DNA from: Bacteroidales bacterium | GTDB taxonomy: Bacteria; Bacteroidota; Bacteroidia; Bacteroidales; UBA932 | DNA: 64,000 bases | NCBI GenBank assembly: GCA_017439305.1 | Contig: JAFSJK010000043.1 | Coordinates: 1-64,000 of the forward strand | Reading direction: 5' to 3' | Part shown: piece by piece, positions 14,375-62,282 of the stretch | Layout: every line of letters begins with the position of its first letter | Position numbering within the stretch: the stretch's first letter is position 1 | Program-made: the position numbers and the translations under genes | The notes under the pieces: generated by a model | What the model was told of the DNA's origin: nothing | Database searches by the model: none | The model's input: only the letters and a program-made list of their open reading frames with translations

Positions 14375-14680
14375 TTACCGGTTTTTCAAGATGGAGGAAA
14401 CTGTGTCAAGCAGACGGACAGTCAGGGCATAATGATCGCTGAGGACGTCATAGATTCCGTCCTCCGACAGGACACCCCGCTTCAAGCCGGCGGGCAGTTT
14501 CCCGGCCTCGTCGGCCTCGAAATCCTCCCGCCAGGATCCGCCTTCATAATAAGCGGCCAGTTCCTGCACATCCGTCTGGATACCGTCAAAGGCATCCAAC
14601 GCCTCGTCCAGGTTCGCCAGGACGGGAGTGACCCTGTCCAGCAATTCCTCGAAATGCTGAATCCTCTCAATCTGTTCCAT
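14375..14680 (-). CDS. DUF4298 domain protein
   Basis: This small acidic cytosolic protein of 101 aa begins MEQIERIQHFEELLD. The pattern of an N-terminal amphipathic helix, a YEGGSWREDFEADEAGKLP segment and the ending VLSEDxIYDVLSD...L matches the DUF4298 family. No signal peptide or membrane helix is present and no function is known. It overlaps the 3' end of the methyltransferase gene by 14 bases and lies 3 bases before the CPBP gene, so all three are probably one transcript. Confidence 0.85.
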   Translation of the reverse strand: MEQIERIQHFEELLDRVTPVLANLDEALDAFDGIQTDVQELAAYYEGGSWREDFEADEAGKLPAGLKRGVLSEDGIYDVLSDHYALTVRLLDTVSSILKNR

Positions 14681-15986
14681 ATCTTTTTCTTTTAGTGATT
14701 ATCAAATAATTACCAGCTTCTGAACCCGCCTCGGCCCGAACCCCGAAGACATGGATGTCCCCTCCGGAACCGCATCCGGTCTTGCGGCGCAGGAGTTCCG
14801 AAGTCATCGGAATGTTCCGGGCTGTCACCTCGGCCAGCGGCCAGCGCTTTCCGACCTCCTTCATCGTCCGGTTCCCGAGCGGCCATACTTCCAGGACCTC
14901 GAACGTCTTTCCAAAAGGCCGCAACTCTTCCGGGACGGACGCTCCCACATACAAATGCGTATGTATAGCCAGTTTCCTGAGCCCGAAACGCATGCAGGGC
15001 AGCATGAATGCTCCCGCCTTTGACAGGGCCTTTCCGGGTTCGAACAGCAATCCGCCGGCCACCGGGAAGCCGAAAACGTCATTCCCGGCGATTCCTGAGC
15101 CATCCGAAGGAAGACCGGAAACCTCCATCACGGCACCGCCTTCCACAACGAATTCTGAATGAAGACCTTCCCATTCCCTGTCCAGCAGGAAAAGCAGTTC
15201 CTTGCACTCCCCTCCCGATGCCACGACGTGCACCTCCCGGACATGTTCCAACCGCTTGCAAGCCATGGTGATATCCGCCATCGGCGACAGTTTCAAAAGC
15301 ACGAACCGGCTCGCCGCGAACAATTCCGGCAGCAAAGCCAGCACATCCGGCTGGCACTCTTCGATCAGGAACACCTTCTTTCCGTCCTCCGCCCTCCGGG
15401 CAGGGTCCAGATAGATGACCTCCGGCTCGAATCCGTCCAGCACTTCCGCCACTTTCCCCGGCTCCACCCGCTCATTCCGGAACTGCACGTTTCCTATCCC
15501 CAACTCCTTGAAATTCAACCGGGTCGCCTGCACCAGTACCCCATTCATCTCATTGTACAGCACCTCCTTGGCAACCTGCGCAAAAGCCCACGCATCCACC
15601 CCCATTCCCCCGGTCAGATCGGCAATCCTCATGTTTGCGGGAGCGGTGTAGTCCCAGAACCTGTGGCCACCCTCGGCCGCATAAGAGGGAGGGGCCCATT
15701 TATGGGAGGGGTCGCGTAGCGACGGTTCTGGGACCACACTGCTCCCGCAAACCATGGCCTTATATCTGGCGGTTTCCGAAGAACTGCATTGCTCGCCGGA
15801 GAGGCGGGAAGGATAGACCAGGGAAGGAACGGCGTACCATTCGGGGACCTTGGTCCGGAGTTTTTTCCGGACTTCCAGCGTCGTGACGGCAAGGTCCAGG
15901 TCGATGTCCGGGTATTTGTCCCTGGACAACAGGAGACGGACCGGGTCGTCCTGCGCATGCAGCGATATGAAGTCGGCCAAAGTCAT
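14667..15986 (-). CDS. THUMP-like class I SAM-dependent methyltransferase, with in-frame repeat insertion
   Basis: The predicted protein has 439 aa. An N-terminal region (1-75) precedes a Rossmann methyltransferase domain with motif I at 123-131 (DLTGGMGVD) and a catalytic-type DPARR motif near 195. A C-terminal THUMP-like region follows. It resembles the Bacteroidota family annotated as THUMP-like or RNA cap guanine-N2 methyltransferase-like; the substrate is probably RNA but unproven. The frame is open to 16049, but M22 (15986) starts 10 bases after a promoter box and gives the family-like N-terminus. Residues about 79-118, immediately before motif I, are encoded by the structured repeat at 15633-15752, and the reading frame stays open through it. 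The gene heads the operon with DUF4298 and CPBP genes. Confidence 0.82.
   Translation of the reverse strand: MTLADFISLHAQDDPVRLLLSRDKYPDIDLDLAVTTLEVRKKLRTKVPEWYAVPSLVYPSRLSGEQCSSSETARYKAMVCGSSVVPEPSLRDPSHKWAPPSYAAEGGHRFWDYTAPANMRIADLTGGMGVDAWAFAQVAKEVLYNEMNGVLVQATRLNFKELGIGNVQFRNERVEPGKVAEVLDGFEPEVIYLDPARRAEDGKKVFLIEECQPDVLALLPELFAASRFVLLKLSPMADITMACKRLEHVREVHVVASGGECKELLFLLDREWEGLHSEFVVEGGAVMEVSGLPSDGSGIAGNDVFGFPVAGGLLFEPGKALSKAGAFMLPCMRFGLRKLAIHTHLYVGASVPEELRPFGKTFEVLEVWPLGNRTMKEVGKRWPLAEVTARNIPMTSELLRRKTGCGSGGDIHVFGVRAEAGSEAGNYLIITKRKRYGTD
15633..15752. repeat. structured palindromic element, copy 1 (inside methyltransferase gene)
   Basis: Left arm 15633-15661 and right arm 15724-15752 are 29-base inverted repeats with two imperfect pairs. 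They enclose a 62-base core (15662-15723). The core contains three smaller inverted repeats: CCCTC/GAGGG, CCCAT/ATGGG and GTCGC/GCGAC. The whole could fold as a four-way junction. The core is nearly identical to 61164-61228, while the arms differ. It is translated in frame as about 40 residues of the methyltransferase. No open reading frame for a transposase is linked. Confidence 0.88.
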
Positions 15987-15996
15987 CTTTGCTTTG

Positions 15997-16004
15997 CAAA
16001 AATA
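15997..16004 (-). promoter_or_regulatory. promoter -7 box of methyltransferase operon
   Basis: TATTTTTG on the minus strand matches TAnnTTTG. It ends only 10 bases before the chosen ATG, so the mRNA would have almost no leader. Confidence 0.6.
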
Positions 16005-16016
16005 CATAATAATCGT

Positions 16017-16024
16017 TACATTTG
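16017..16024 (+). promoter_or_regulatory. promoter -7 box of phosphohexomutase gene
   Basis: TACATTTG matches TAnnTTTG, 29 bases before the ATG at 16054. It is back to back with the methyltransferase promoter. Confidence 0.6.
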
Positions 16025-16053
16025 TGTGATTCGGAATAACACTAAACACTGAT

Positions 16054-54935: not shown

Positions 54936-54966
54936 TTTGGTAGTCGCGGAAAAATGACTACCTTTG
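54936..54966 (+). promoter_or_regulatory. promoter of small SRP RNA
   Basis: TTTG (54936-54939), 19 bases, then TACCTTTG (54959-54966) is an exact TTTG-N19-TAnnTTTG. The RNA start at 54971 fits the expected initiation distance. The -33 box begins at the base following the cdd stop codon. Confidence 0.85.
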
Positions 54967-54970
54967 CAAT

Positions 54971-55067
54971 GGGAAAGTCTTACACGACCAGCTCCCTCTG
55001 AACTCCCCCAGGGCAGGAATGCAGCAAGGGTAGGAGGTCGTAGCGGTGCGATGTAATCAGCTTTCCC
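54971..55067 (+). ncRNA. ffs: small signal recognition particle RNA (4.5S type)
   Basis: This RNA of about 97 nt is closed by terminal pairing GGGAAAG/CTTTCCC (54971-54977 with 55061-55067) and continues as a long imperfect hairpin. The apex has the conserved SRP domain IV: CAGGGCAGGAATGCAGCAAGGG, read here in parts as CAGGGC, the GGAA tetraloop and GCAGCAAGGG, which binds Ffh. The Alu domain is absent. Six T residues (55068-55073) follow as terminator. The promoter upstream is a perfect consensus. The next ATG is only 10 bases after the RNA end. Confidence 0.93.
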
Positions 55068-55077
55068 TTTTTTCGTT

Positions 55078-59055: not shown

Positions 59056-59589
59056 CTAAATGAACGTCGGTTCGTGCCCTGCCGCAGGAAGGAACTTCTG
59101 CAGCAGGTCGGCCGTCGCAATCCGCATGTAGCAGGTGGTCGTGCCATCCGGACAACCGATGGATTCCGGCTGGACGGCCGCCTTGTCGATAATGAGACGC
59201 ACGCGTCTTTCCGGGTCAGCCACCAGGCTGAGCGGCGTCGTAGCGCCCACTTCCGTTCCCAGGAAGGCGTGCAGCATTTCTGCCGGAGCGAACGAGACCC
59301 GGGAAATCTGCAGTGCAGCGCCGAAATCCTTGGTACTGAACGGCTTGTTCCCCGGCATCACATACAAATAGAACATCGTCCGCTGCCGGTTGCAAAGGAG
59401 CAGCGTCTTCACGGTGGGAACCCCGAGGGCCGCATCCACAGCCGCGCAGTCCTCCATTGTCACCGCCGGATCGTTGTCAATGCGTGCGAACGGAATCTCC
59501 AGCCGTGCCAAGGCGCCATAGACCAGCCGCTGGGTTTCGTTGACAAACACTTCCGGAGCGGAAGTCTTGATTTCACTGGTCCGAATCAT
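59056..59589 (-). CDS. YbaK/ProX-type aminoacyl-tRNA deacylase
   Basis: This 177-aa protein of the INS/YbaK editing family hydrolyses mischarged tRNAs such as Ala- or Cys-tRNA-Pro. The family-typical K near residue 60 (PTVKTLLLCN), GNKPFSTKDFGAAL, the EVGATTPLSLVAD loop and the late GCPDGTTTCYMRI are present. The frame is open to 59664, but M26 (59589) overlaps the upstream flavoprotein stop as ATGA and is preferred. It is the last gene of the flavoprotein operon and converges with the ATP-grasp gene, 3 bases apart. Confidence 0.87.
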   Translation of the reverse strand: MIRTSEIKTSAPEVFVNETQRLVYGALARLEIPFARIDNDPAVTMEDCAAVDAALGVPTVKTLLLCNRQRTMFYLYVMPGNKPFSTKDFGAALQISRVSFAPAEMLHAFLGTEVGATTPLSLVADPERRVRLIIDKAAVQPESIGCPDGTTTCYMRIATADLLQKFLPAAGHEPTFI

Positions 59590-61121
59590 ATCTTTTCCGC
59601 GCAATTGATGCCGTCGAGGGCGGAGGAGACGATGCCGCCGGCATAACCGGCACCTTCCCCGCAAGGATACAGACCGGGGACATCCACATGTTCAAGCGTT
59701 TCCGGATTACGCGGCAGACGGACCGGCGAAGACGTGCGGGATTCGACACCCAAAAGCAGGGCGTCATTTGTATAGTAGCCGTGCATCTGGCGGTCCACCT
59801 GCGGGAACGCACGCCGCAGACGCAGTGACACGTGTTCCGGCAGGAGCTCGTGCAAAGGCGAGGACCAGGCACCGGGATGGTAAGACGTCTTGGGAAGGTC
59901 CTTGGACACGATGCCACGGCAGAAATCCTTCATCCGCTGCGCCGGCGCGGCCAGCGGATGCTTTCCGCCGTGCGTGGACACATACTCGAACATCCTCTTC
60001 TCAATGTCGTGCTGATAATCCATCAGGGCGAAAGGACCCTGATACACAGCCGGCTGGTCGCCCGGCTCGATCTGCACGACCACGCCCGCATTGGCCCACT
60101 TGGAATTGCGGGCCGAATTGGACATCCCGTTCAGGACCACGGTACCGTCCTCCGTGGAGGAAGGGACCAGGATACCACCGGGGCACATACAGAACGAGAA
60201 AACACCACGGCCTTCCACCTGCTGGACGAAGGAATACTCGGCAGTGGGCATAAACGGCTGATACTTACCGTGATAACGGATCTGATTAATGAGCCACTGC
60301 GGATGCTCCACCCGGACGCCCAAGGCAAATCCCTTGGCCTCCAGGGCCCAGCCCCGCCGCTCGAAGATCTCGTAGATATCCCGGGCGGAATGCCCCGATG
60401 CCAGAATCACTTTCGCAGCCTTGTACACAGTCTCGCCGACATGGACCTCGAATCCGCCGGCCACCGGCACGATGTCCGTCACCCGGCTGTCGAAATGATA
60501 CGCTCCCCCGTGCTCTTCGATGCACAGGCGCATATTCTCCACGATCTGCGGAAGCTTGTCCGTTCCCAGATGCGGATGGGCATCGATGAGGATGGAAGGA
60601 TCGGCCCCGAACCGGACGAACTGGTGCAGCACTTCCCGGATGTCACCCCGTTTGGACGAACGGGTGAACAGCTTCCCGTCAGAGAAAGCGCCCGCTCCCC
60701 CTTCGCCGTAGCAATAGTTGGAATCCGGGTCGATCACTCCCTCCACGGACAATTTGGCCATGTCCACCTTCCGGCGGTGCACGTCTTTGCCACGCTCCAG
60801 GATAATGGGTTTCAAGCCCCTGGTGAGCAGTTTCAATGCCGCGAAGAGCCCTGCAGGGCCCGCACCGACGACAATCACCGGCTCTGCCTCATGGACATCC
60901 TGGTACTCCGGGAGCCGGTACGGTTCATAGACTTCCCCCTCGCGGTAAGCCTGCACCCGGTAGCGATACAGTATCTCCTGGCGCGCATCCACGGAACGCC
61001 TGGTCACGACGACATCCCCGACCTTCTCGGGCCTGACACCCAATGCCTTGGCCGCCGCCTCCTTCAGCTCCGCTTCAGTCAGCTCCTTCCCGATTTTTTT
61101 AGCTATCTCGAACTCTTTCAT
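59586..61121 (-). CDS. COG2509-type FAD-dependent dehydrogenase
   Basis: This 511-aa flavoprotein has an N-terminal RNA-binding-like or THUMP-like helical region (1-85) that is typical of the COG2509 group. The dinucleotide fold follows (VIVVGAGPAGLFAALKLLTRG, then ERGKDVHRRK), with NYCYGEGGAGAFSDGKL, GHSARDIYEI and the C-terminal GLYPCGEGAGYAGGIVSSALDG. The function of the family is not established. M22 (61121) is used because upstream codons come from the structured repeat. It lies downstream of tsaD on the same strand, with the 121-base palindromic element between them. Confidence 0.88.
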   Translation of the reverse strand: MKEFEIAKKIGKELTEAELKEAAAKALGVRPEKVGDVVVTRRSVDARQEILYRYRVQAYREGEVYEPYRLPEYQDVHEAEPVIVVGAGPAGLFAALKLLTRGLKPIILERGKDVHRRKVDMAKLSVEGVIDPDSNYCYGEGGAGAFSDGKLFTRSSKRGDIREVLHQFVRFGADPSILIDAHPHLGTDKLPQIVENMRLCIEEHGGAYHFDSRVTDIVPVAGGFEVHVGETVYKAAKVILASGHSARDIYEIFERRGWALEAKGFALGVRVEHPQWLINQIRYHGKYQPFMPTAEYSFVQQVEGRGVFSFCMCPGGILVPSSTEDGTVVLNGMSNSARNSKWANAGVVVQIEPGDQPAVYQGPFALMDYQHDIEKRMFEYVSTHGGKHPLAAPAQRMKDFCRGIVSKDLPKTSYHPGAWSSPLHELLPEHVSLRLRRAFPQVDRQMHGYYTNDALLLGVESRTSSPVRLPRNPETLEHVDVPGLYPCGEGAGYAGGIVSSALDGINCAEKI

Positions 61122-61135
61122 TTTACATTGTCTCT

Positions 61136-61256
61136 TTTGGGAGAGGGTGGACATTCGGAAACCTGTGGCCACCCTCGGCCGCATAAGAGGGAGGGGCCCA
61201 TCTCTGATGGGAGGGGTCGCGGAGCGACGGTTTCCGAATGTCTGCCCTCTCCCAAA
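61136..61256. repeat. structured palindromic element, copy 2 (intergenic)
   Basis: Arms 61136-61163 and 61229-61256 are 28-base inverted repeats with 26 Watson-Crick and two G-T pairs. They enclose a 65-base core (61164-61228). The core matches copy 1 except for two loops: the CCCAT/ATGGG loop is 5 instead of 2 bases, and the GTCGC/GCGAC loop is GGA instead of GTA. The arms differ from copy 1 at 12 of 28 positions. It fills the gap between the tsaD stop and the downstream flavoprotein start. Confidence 0.9.
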
Positions 61257-61259
61257 CCA

Positions 61260-62282
61260 TCAATAATCGGCCATGCGTGAGACGGGGGCGACGTCCAGGG
61301 GGGTGCGCTCGCCCGCCTTGTAGCGGAACCAGCCGGCAACGGCGATCATCGCCGCGTTGTCGGTCGTGAACTTGAACTCCGGCAGATAGGTCTTACAGCC
61401 GCGTTTCTTTCCTTCGGCGACGATCCGATCGCGGAGCCCGCTGTTGGCGGAGACACCGCCGCCGATGGTGACCTGCTTGATCTTCGTTTCCTTCGCCGCC
61501 CGGATGAGCTTCTGCATCAGGATATCAATGAGGGTCTTCTGGAAACTGGCACAAAGGTCCTCCTTGTTCTTTTCCAGGAAGTCCGGATCCTTCGCCATCT
61601 CATCCCGGACGAAATACAGGAGCGAAGTCTTGATGCCGCTGAAGCTGTAGTCGAGGCCCGGAATGTTGGGCTTCGCAAAATGGAACCGCTCCGGATCACC
61701 CAGCTTCGCAAGACGGTCGATGACCGGACCGCCGGGGTAGCCGAGTCCCAGCATTTTCGAACATTTGTCGAAAGCCTCCCCCACCGCATCGTCGATGGTC
61801 TGGCCCAGGATCTCGTATTCCAAGGGGCTCACCACCTTGACAATCTGCGAGTTGCCGCCGGAAACCAGGAGACAGAGATACGGGAAGGACGGCTCGTCCA
61901 CCGGCTTGTCCGGCTGCCGGACGAAGTTCGCCAGGATATGCCCCTGCAGGTGATTGACCATGATCATCGGAATATCCAGCGAGAGGGAAAGGGCCTTCGC
62001 GAAGGAAGTGCCTACCAGCAGGGAACCCAACAGGCCCGGCCCCCGGGTGAACGCGACGGCCGTAAGGTCCCCGGGGGCGACCCCGGCCTTCCGGAGCGCC
62101 TCGGATACCACCGGAACGATGTTCTGCTCGTGGGCGCGGGAGGCCAGCTCCGGCACTACCCCGCCGAAGTCCTTGTGGACCTGCTGCGAGGCGATGACGT
62201 TGGACAGCAGGACCCCGTCGCGGAGGACGGCGGCCGAGGTGTCGTCGCAGGATGATTCGATGCCGAGAATGATGTCTGCCAT
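61260..62282 (-). CDS. tsaD: tRNA N6-adenosine threonylcarbamoyltransferase TsaD
   Basis: This 340-aa ASKHA-fold enzyme transfers the threonylcarbamoyl group to A37 of ANN-reading tRNAs. Conserved blocks are ILGIESSCDDTSAAV, VVPELASRAHEQN (metal histidine), FTRGPGLLGSLLVG, MVNHLQGHI (second histidine), GGNSQIV, GLDYSFSGIKTSLL, IGGGVSANSGLR and FTTDNAAMIA. Length and motifs are normal. Its promoter is divergent with that of the TamB-like gene. The palindromic element begins 3 bases after the stop codon and may influence its 3' end. Confidence 0.98.
   Translation of the reverse strand: MADIILGIESSCDDTSAAVLRDGVLLSNVIASQQVHKDFGGVVPELASRAHEQNIVPVVSEALRKAGVAPGDLTAVAFTRGPGLLGSLLVGTSFAKALSLSLDIPMIMVNHLQGHILANFVRQPDKPVDEPSFPYLCLLVSGGNSQIVKVVSPLEYEILGQTIDDAVGEAFDKCSKMLGLGYPGGPVIDRLAKLGDPERFHFAKPNIPGLDYSFSGIKTSLLYFVRDEMAKDPDFLEKNKEDLCASFQKTLIDILMQKLIRAAKETKIKQVTIGGGVSANSGLRDRIVAEGKKRGCKTYLPEFKFTTDNAAMIAVAGWFRYKAGERTPLDVAPVSRMADY

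Follow-up and report, generated by a model that had tools for sequence, protein, structure and literature searches.

The window, a stretch of 64,000 nucleotides from contig JAFSJK010000043.1 of a Bacteroidales bacterium (assembly GCA_017439305.1), holds two copies of a palindromic element, which are listed in Table 1 together with their parts and the genes around them. The first copy lies inside a protein gene and in frame with it, a position that had been missed by the initial annotation, and the second lies between two genes. The frame of the oxidoreductase-like gene next to the second copy is open into the element, so that its start codon is uncertain. The window also encodes, at 54964-55071, the Bacteroidales small SRP RNA (Rfam RF04183, 110 bits).

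Table 1. Coordinates in the window of the two element copies, their parts and the adjacent genes.
Feature	Position	Strand	Remarks
Copy 1 of the element	15633..15752	+ (as defined by CTGTGGCCACCCTCGG)	antisense to host gene
Copy 1, left arm	15633..15661	+	29 nt
Copy 1, core	15662-15723	+	62 nt
Copy 1, hairpin 1	15662..15681	+	TGTGGCC (15662-15668), loop ACCCTC (15669-15674), GGCCGCA (15675-15681)
Copy 1, pseudoknot 5' strand	15670..15674	+	CCCTC
Copy 1, pseudoknot 3' strand	15685..15689	+	GAGGG
Copy 1, hairpin 2	15695..15706	+	CCCAT-TT-ATGGG
Copy 1, hairpin 3	15711..15723	+	GTCGC-GTA-GCGAC
Copy 1, right arm	15724..15752	+	29 nt
Host gene of copy 1	14667..16049	-	460-aa protein with THUMP-like domain and methyltransferase-like motif region; element read through without stop
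FAD-dependent oxidoreductase-like gene	59586..61121	-	downstream of copy 2
Copy 2 of the element	61136..61256	+	
Copy 2, left arm	61136..61163	+	28 nt
Copy 2, core	61164..61228	+	65 nt
Copy 2, right arm	61229..61256	+	28 nt
tsaD	61260..62282	-	upstream neighbour of copy 2; stop codon 3 nt from element

Both copies had been proposed by the initial annotation, and they are present at these coordinates. Its comparison of the two also agrees with ours: their cores differ in loops only, the loop of CCCAT/ATGGG being TT in one and CTCTG in the other, and that of GTCGC/GCGAC being GTA and GGA, respectively. A hand count on the sequence gives 12 differences between the left arms over 28 bases. Nine of these positions form Watson-Crick pairs in both copies, and the other three comprise two that are wobbles in copy 2 and an A·C mismatch in copy 1. 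When the + strands are folded, copy 1 has a z-score of -8.8 and copy 2 one of -9.0, with no equally stable sequence among 200 shuffles, and the core pattern matches twice in the window against 0.03 matches expected.

On the + strand, the two arms form an outer helix, typically of 25-30 bp, around a core with three hairpins. These three inner hairpins had been recognized previously, although hairpin 1 is in fact TGTGGCC/GGCCGCA, and the CCCTC of its loop pairs with a downstream GAGGG, a pseudoknot that had gone unnoticed. In other copies, the three outer pairs of hairpin 1 vary on both sides and the three inner ones are invariant, and hairpin 2 (CCCAT/ATGGG) is the part that varies most in length. 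Covariation was tested by shuffles and slides in an alignment (A2) of 41 of the 136 non-redundant copies, selected for a short hairpin 2. Both partners have changed in 31 of the 46 pairs, and covariation scores 0.564, compared with 0.150 for shuffled alignments and 0.10-0.13 for slid structures. No variation at all is seen in A2 for ten of the 46 pairs, including all five pairs of the pseudoknot, which was assessed in a larger set of 191 distinct model matches, 190 of them with a six-base loop. The pseudoknot is fully paired in 182 of these 190 rows, whereas shuffling gave a mean of 163 and a maximum of 169 in 1000 runs. Its support comes from 20 loops that depart from CCCTC, a number of which belong to a single genome (G238). 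Of these 20, 15 pair completely, whereas random partners would give 2.4 on average and gave at most 8 in 1000 runs; the compensatory types include CCCGT/ACGGG (11), CCCAC/GTGGG (2), CCCGC/GCGGG (1), and TCCTC/GAGGA (1). According to these data, covariation supports the predicted arms, parts of all three hairpins, and the pseudoknot, with the caution that copies entered the set by their core sequence and arm score. The covarying arms and the junction with three inner hairpins, as originally described from two copies, hold on 41 aligned and 162 scored copies.

The genome to which the window belongs (G000; 2.99 Mb, 92.6% complete) contains 18 covariance-model matches at E <= 0.01, most of which were also recovered by blastn with copy 1. 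In the genus, 35 of the 61 genomes, this one included, have a core match (E <= 0.001) and 26 have none. A pattern scan returned at least 119 stretches in named GTDB MAGs, and the titles among those listed all name Bacteroidales or Bacteroidia, or in one case Candidatus Coprenecus. Outside the genus, the covariance model identified few carrier genomes. These include G238, from another family, with 18 matches at E <= 1 (16 at E <= 0.001); G186, from another genus of the family, with five; and G088, with one, each of the three genomes being 99% complete. Model searches at E <= 1e-4 gave matches in at least five of 198 genomes at the order level and in at least one of 395 at the phylum level, the latter being the own genome; both counts are lower bounds because the filters were strict and few candidates were scored per genome. 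Phage and plasmid collections searched with the element yielded no match, and an exact-pattern search of IMG/VR found none. The initial annotation had recognized no described family, and no Rfam 15 family was matched at gathering score; the sub-threshold matches at E <= 10 were for the most part to miRNA hairpin models and fell far short of the respective gathering scores. In the literature searched (open-licence PMC papers), the family is not described. There are more than two copies with complementary arms, and the test that the initial annotation had set for itself has favoured its finding. Judged from sequence, the element, which measures 100-195 bp in the copies measured, is a dispersed repeat family of short, non-coding, apparently mobile palindromes in certain Bacteroidales.

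Regarding their genetic context, 65 of the 149 copies away from contig edges are located inside an ORF (35 antisense and 30 sense), as determined by a simple ORF caller that chose ORFs by length. The other 84 are intergenic, often at 20 nt or less from a neighbour, and occur in all four neighbour arrangements. In 66 copies, selected for this property, a frame runs open through the entire element and for 60 codons or more to either side. The host protein of copy 1 carries it between the segments EQCSSxxTARYKA and RIADLTGG, which are joined by a short linker in element-free relatives. Among 30 loci of this methyltransferase gene, six hold an element, five at the same linker and one elsewhere, and all six frames were open in a protein search that reads through stops. 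Not all of these copies are antisense, since the one in G019 is sense. Self-splicing or bypass had been considered for intragenic copies, and is unneeded because the six methyltransferase genes stay open through the element.

Other host proteins also keep their identity despite the insert. In an equivalog scan of ten proteins, RNase R (692 bits, split at the insert), YgiQ (754), MurB (340), and TruA (161) scored above their cut-offs, and an RlmI-like (L117) and an aldehyde dehydrogenase-like protein (L212) fell below theirs. In TruA, both orientations are open in frame (antisense in L010, sense in L162). A Pfam scan of 20 host ORFs, hand-picked from the 66 open-frame cases, matched 16 and left four without a match; ten ORFs of the own genome were added to this host-gene scan. 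The inserts that could be placed are either inside RNB, Radical_SAM_N, PseudoU_synth_1, Aldedh, and HI0933-like regions or in linkers, and no common function is visible among the scanned genes. Two short palindromes were seen near copies: what we take to be a parS-like 16-bp palindrome, a few bases beyond the right arm of the element at L161 (3319-3431), and another that presumably resembles CGTC-type REPs, at L198:2771-2798, ~700 nt from the nearest copy.

The arms were analysed in a larger set, in which 176 candidate places were selected by core sequence and put to an arm test. Of these, 162 copies were kept and 14 failed the arm test; by eye, ~6 of the latter are weaker elements and eight are non-elements. 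The 162 copies comprise 4620 aligned arm positions, with 76 small indels and 257 non-Watson-Crick positions: 88 G·T against 33 A·C (binomial p = 6e-7), 83 A·G/G·A, and 53 others. The A·G/G·A mismatches peak 9-10 nt from the GCC of the core. The excess of G·T over A·C was further examined by host direction in 157 of the 162 copies, after removing repeats of the same arm, and amounts to 22 vs 7 in copies antisense to the host ORF (p = 0.008), 14 vs 5 in sense copies (p = 0.06), and 49 vs 18 in the others (p = 0.0002). As the excess also appears in antisense copies, the preference goes with the strand of the element rather than with that of the host mRNA. It could, instead of selection, reflect a strand-specific C-to-T mutation bias.

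Several copies within G238, and several within G186, have arms in common, which indicates that arms are inherited on copying and diverge later. Filled and empty sites have been observed between species, and the empty sites that were aligned show no arm sequence; together with the shared arms of G186 and G238, this rules out that arms are built from target DNA. The existence of filled and empty sites, the dispersed copies, and the arms shared in two genomes argue that the element has been copied to new places. The target-site duplication signal is at most weak and none is clear: adjacent 5-mers number 15 vs 7.2 and adjacent 6-mers 7 vs 2.0, each count only one above the maximum of 200 shuffles.

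The copies of these two genomes exhibit some additional features. In G238 (L249-L274), there are two sub-families with shared arms, as well as tandem half-copies at 78 bp spacing (L259) and chimeras of both sub-families (L276, L291). In L257 and L265, the second sub-family seems to be interrupted by what we assume to be IS3-like ends. The arm pattern occurs at 42 places in this genome, and those that were read are elements, tandem pieces, or chimeras; no larger autonomous version was found among the loci read. In G186, the copies of L250, L253, and L258 are located directly beyond terminator-like hairpins with T runs, and L250, L255, and L258 have ~30 nt in common outside the left arm, so that on this side the mobile unit may reach further than the arm. 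A half copy on contig C6 has an arm identical to that of the copy ending contig C71 (L017:715-743 and L002:1501-1572) and is joined to an unrelated gene, as would result from a deletion within an element or from a mixture of strains in the MAG.

The enzyme most readily suspected of moving such a palindrome is a RAYT. In this explanation, the element would be REP/REPIN-like and moved by a Y1 HUH transposase acting on the folded + strand as single-stranded DNA, which would account for the strand-specific G·T preference. A link to RAYT-like or HUH transposases had been raised by the initial annotation, and it stands within the genus, where carriers and Y1_Tnp co-occur: the element is present in 33 of the 46 genomes with a PF01797 match and in two of the 15 without (a correlation uncorrected for relatedness), and in these two exceptions (G014, G022) Y1 was found by a better profile (Bacteroidales Y1). 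G000 has 16 matches to this RAYT-like profile (L092-L096, L305, L308-L314). The link fails in three other carrier genomes, as G238, G186, and G088 contain no PF01797 match and none with the Bacteroidales Y1 profile (A5), on which ground a RAYT was rejected as the required mover. Nor did the model detect an element in the 35 Y1 loci (~30 different genes), each searched together with 1.5-2 kb to either side as far as the contig extends. Among the Y1 genes of G000 that were read, several have their own short flanking hairpins, which are unrelated to the element. According to the available text of PMC3733652, REP elements are short palindromes found inside genes too in some species. The alignments do not show the 20-40 bp hairpin with an unpaired GTAG or CGTC tag by which a REP is recognized, the GTC of hairpin 3 being within the stem, and the two marks of a REP/RAYT system, Y1 in every carrier and a transposase flanked by the repeat, are lacking in those three genomes and at the 35 loci. 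The element is like REPs, BIMEs, and REPINs in being a short palindrome possibly copied via a folded single strand, and unlike them in being much longer, in its non-constant arms, and in having carriers where no Y1 was found. Movement by a RAYT is consequently regarded as unlikely.

A reverse transcriptase with an RVT_1 domain has also been considered. It is present in the carriers G003, G019, G042, and G058, and likewise in genomes without a core match (G013, G029, G030, and G050), and was not found in the four carriers G000, G238, G186, and G088, for which reason it was rejected as the required mover. The gene of the mover may be of another kind, or it may have been lost or missed in these genomes.

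A different question is how the arms remain paired while their sequence changes. A search by flanks identified 36 same-site pairs, 22 in the same and 14 in opposite orientation, and 18 pairs were chosen by hand for closer comparison. The 14 of them with the same orientation show 268 unchanged arm pairs, 81 double paired changes, eight one-sided changes, and 18 pairs unpaired in one copy; when the four opposite-orientation pairs (L010/L162, L008/L224, L055/L152, and L045/L052) are added, the counts are 339 unchanged, 107 double, 12 one-sided, and 28 unpaired. L010/L162, whose arms are alike at 23 of 25 positions with flanks of 89-92%, and L038/L135, also in opposite orientation with arms alike at 25 of 29, each seem to be the same insertion flipped in place. 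Some of the same-site pairs may, on the other hand, have arisen by independent insertion, in particular those in opposite orientation whose arms are unlike. That intermediates are scarce and cores are flipped suggests a transfer of sequence from one arm to the other, through template switching or recombination. According to the portions available of PMC8794818 and PMC8604942, template switching is a source of paired changes, creates and maintains hairpins, homogenises their arms, and inverts the spacer. The initial annotation had interpreted the arm differences as compensatory change; the pairing is indeed kept, as covariation shows, but selection is not proven by covariation alone, given that double changes outnumber intermediates in same-site pairs and that copies are flipped.

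This process could even be the only one at work. The element would then be a neutral palindrome whose pairing is due to template-switch homogenisation or recombination, whose core is conserved as its copies are young, and whose fold plays no role. Templated correction predicts what is observed in a subset of 14 pairs (one flipped, 13 in the same orientation) drawn from the 18, namely that double changes with transversions (37) are about as frequent as transition pairs (36), and that both exceed single-sided states (8 wobble, 13 mismatch); flipped copies are in turn known to arise as a side effect when the template is switched between inverted repeats, as stated in the accessible part of PMC8604942. 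Nevertheless, hairpin and pseudoknot positions also covary, the G·T excess is strand-specific, and the A·G/G·A mismatches cluster at one distance from the core. Moreover, cores can be alike despite diverged flanks (59/62 in L001/L030, with flanks of 79-81%), although this does not apply to every pair (47/65 in L010/L216). For these reasons, a palindrome without any role for its fold is considered improbable.

It is no more probable that the element is a cis-acting RNA useful to the host in mRNA processing, stability, or termination and multiplied through usefulness in place: the core is strongly conserved, same-site copies are retained between species at a flank identity of ~70-90%, the element of L006/L198 is more conserved than its flanks, and many copies lie between stop and start codons, whereas the orientation to genes is mixed, more than a third of the same-site pairs are oppositely oriented, the G·U preference persists in antisense copies, whose mRNA carries the other strand, and the scanned host genes do not share a function.

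The explanation that we favour, and which we consider moderately likely as a whole, is that of a mobile palindrome with a folded + strand, arm templating, a selected fold, and tolerated in-frame inserts. The + strand would work as a folded single strand (RNA or single-stranded DNA) while it is copied, with the long arm helix ending in a junction of three hairpins and the pseudoknot. As copies age, their arms would diverge and still stay paired because template switching or recombination copies one arm onto the other, a process that would at times also flip the core, and selection on the fold would contribute to keeping the arms paired. Insertions into genes would last only where the frame stays open, the element then being translated as a tolerated loop. 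A bolder version, to which little probability is assigned, depicts a minimal mobile RNA in which a pseudoknotted core of ~65 nt spreads via its folded + strand RNA by means of host machinery or an as yet unknown enzyme that is neither RAYT nor RVT_1, with template switching renewing the arm pairing and flipping the core; the element would be a regular source of in-frame peptides in working, probably essential, Bacteroidales proteins.

Among known systems, the mobile palindrome proposed here most resembles the Rickettsia palindromic elements (RPEs), as a likeness of description: both would be short spreading palindromes tolerated in frame. RPEs are described in the available text of PMC10969869 as palindromes of ~150 bp, dispersed and often in frame within unrelated protein genes, and PMC3733652, as far as its text is available, knows no dedicated transposase for the CGTC-tagged RPEs. 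The element is likewise a palindromic repeat of ~100-150 bp with a strong hairpin and inserts in frame into unrelated protein genes. In contrast, its host belongs to the Bacteroidales, its constant pseudoknotted core lies between copy-specific covarying arms, and many of its copies are intergenic. It has not been filed as an RPE because the likeness rests on description and because a pseudoknotted core and copy-specific arms are absent from the accounts of RPEs in the available text of PMC10969869 and PMC3733652. Long inverted repeats inside coding genes are also reported for the mitochondria of Nematomorpha, a likeness limited by the different organism and by the lack of any common core in what is available of that description (PMC6649704). 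With MITEs such as Correia, RUP, and BrickBuilt, the element shares its size range, terminal inverted repeats, and the lack of an ORF of its own; it differs from them in inverted repeats that vary from copy to copy, in its many intragenic copies (BrickBuilt being strictly intergenic as reported in the available part of PMC10969869), and in showing no clear target duplication. No parent transposon was found for the element, including at those of the 42 arm-pattern places of G238 that were read.

In-frame palindromic insertions are best known from Rickettsia. The family described here would represent a structurally richer one doing likewise in Bacteroidales, of which many are MAGs from the rumen; numerous genomes hold its copies, which are of several ages, and it makes three questions testable. 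One is which molecule is copied, a single strand being indicated by the strand-specific wobble signal. Another is whether long arms stay perfect while their sequence changes by template switching or by selection, and a third is how often inserts become accepted parts of proteins. Finally, the element may account for odd inserted peptides in annotated Bacteroidales proteins.
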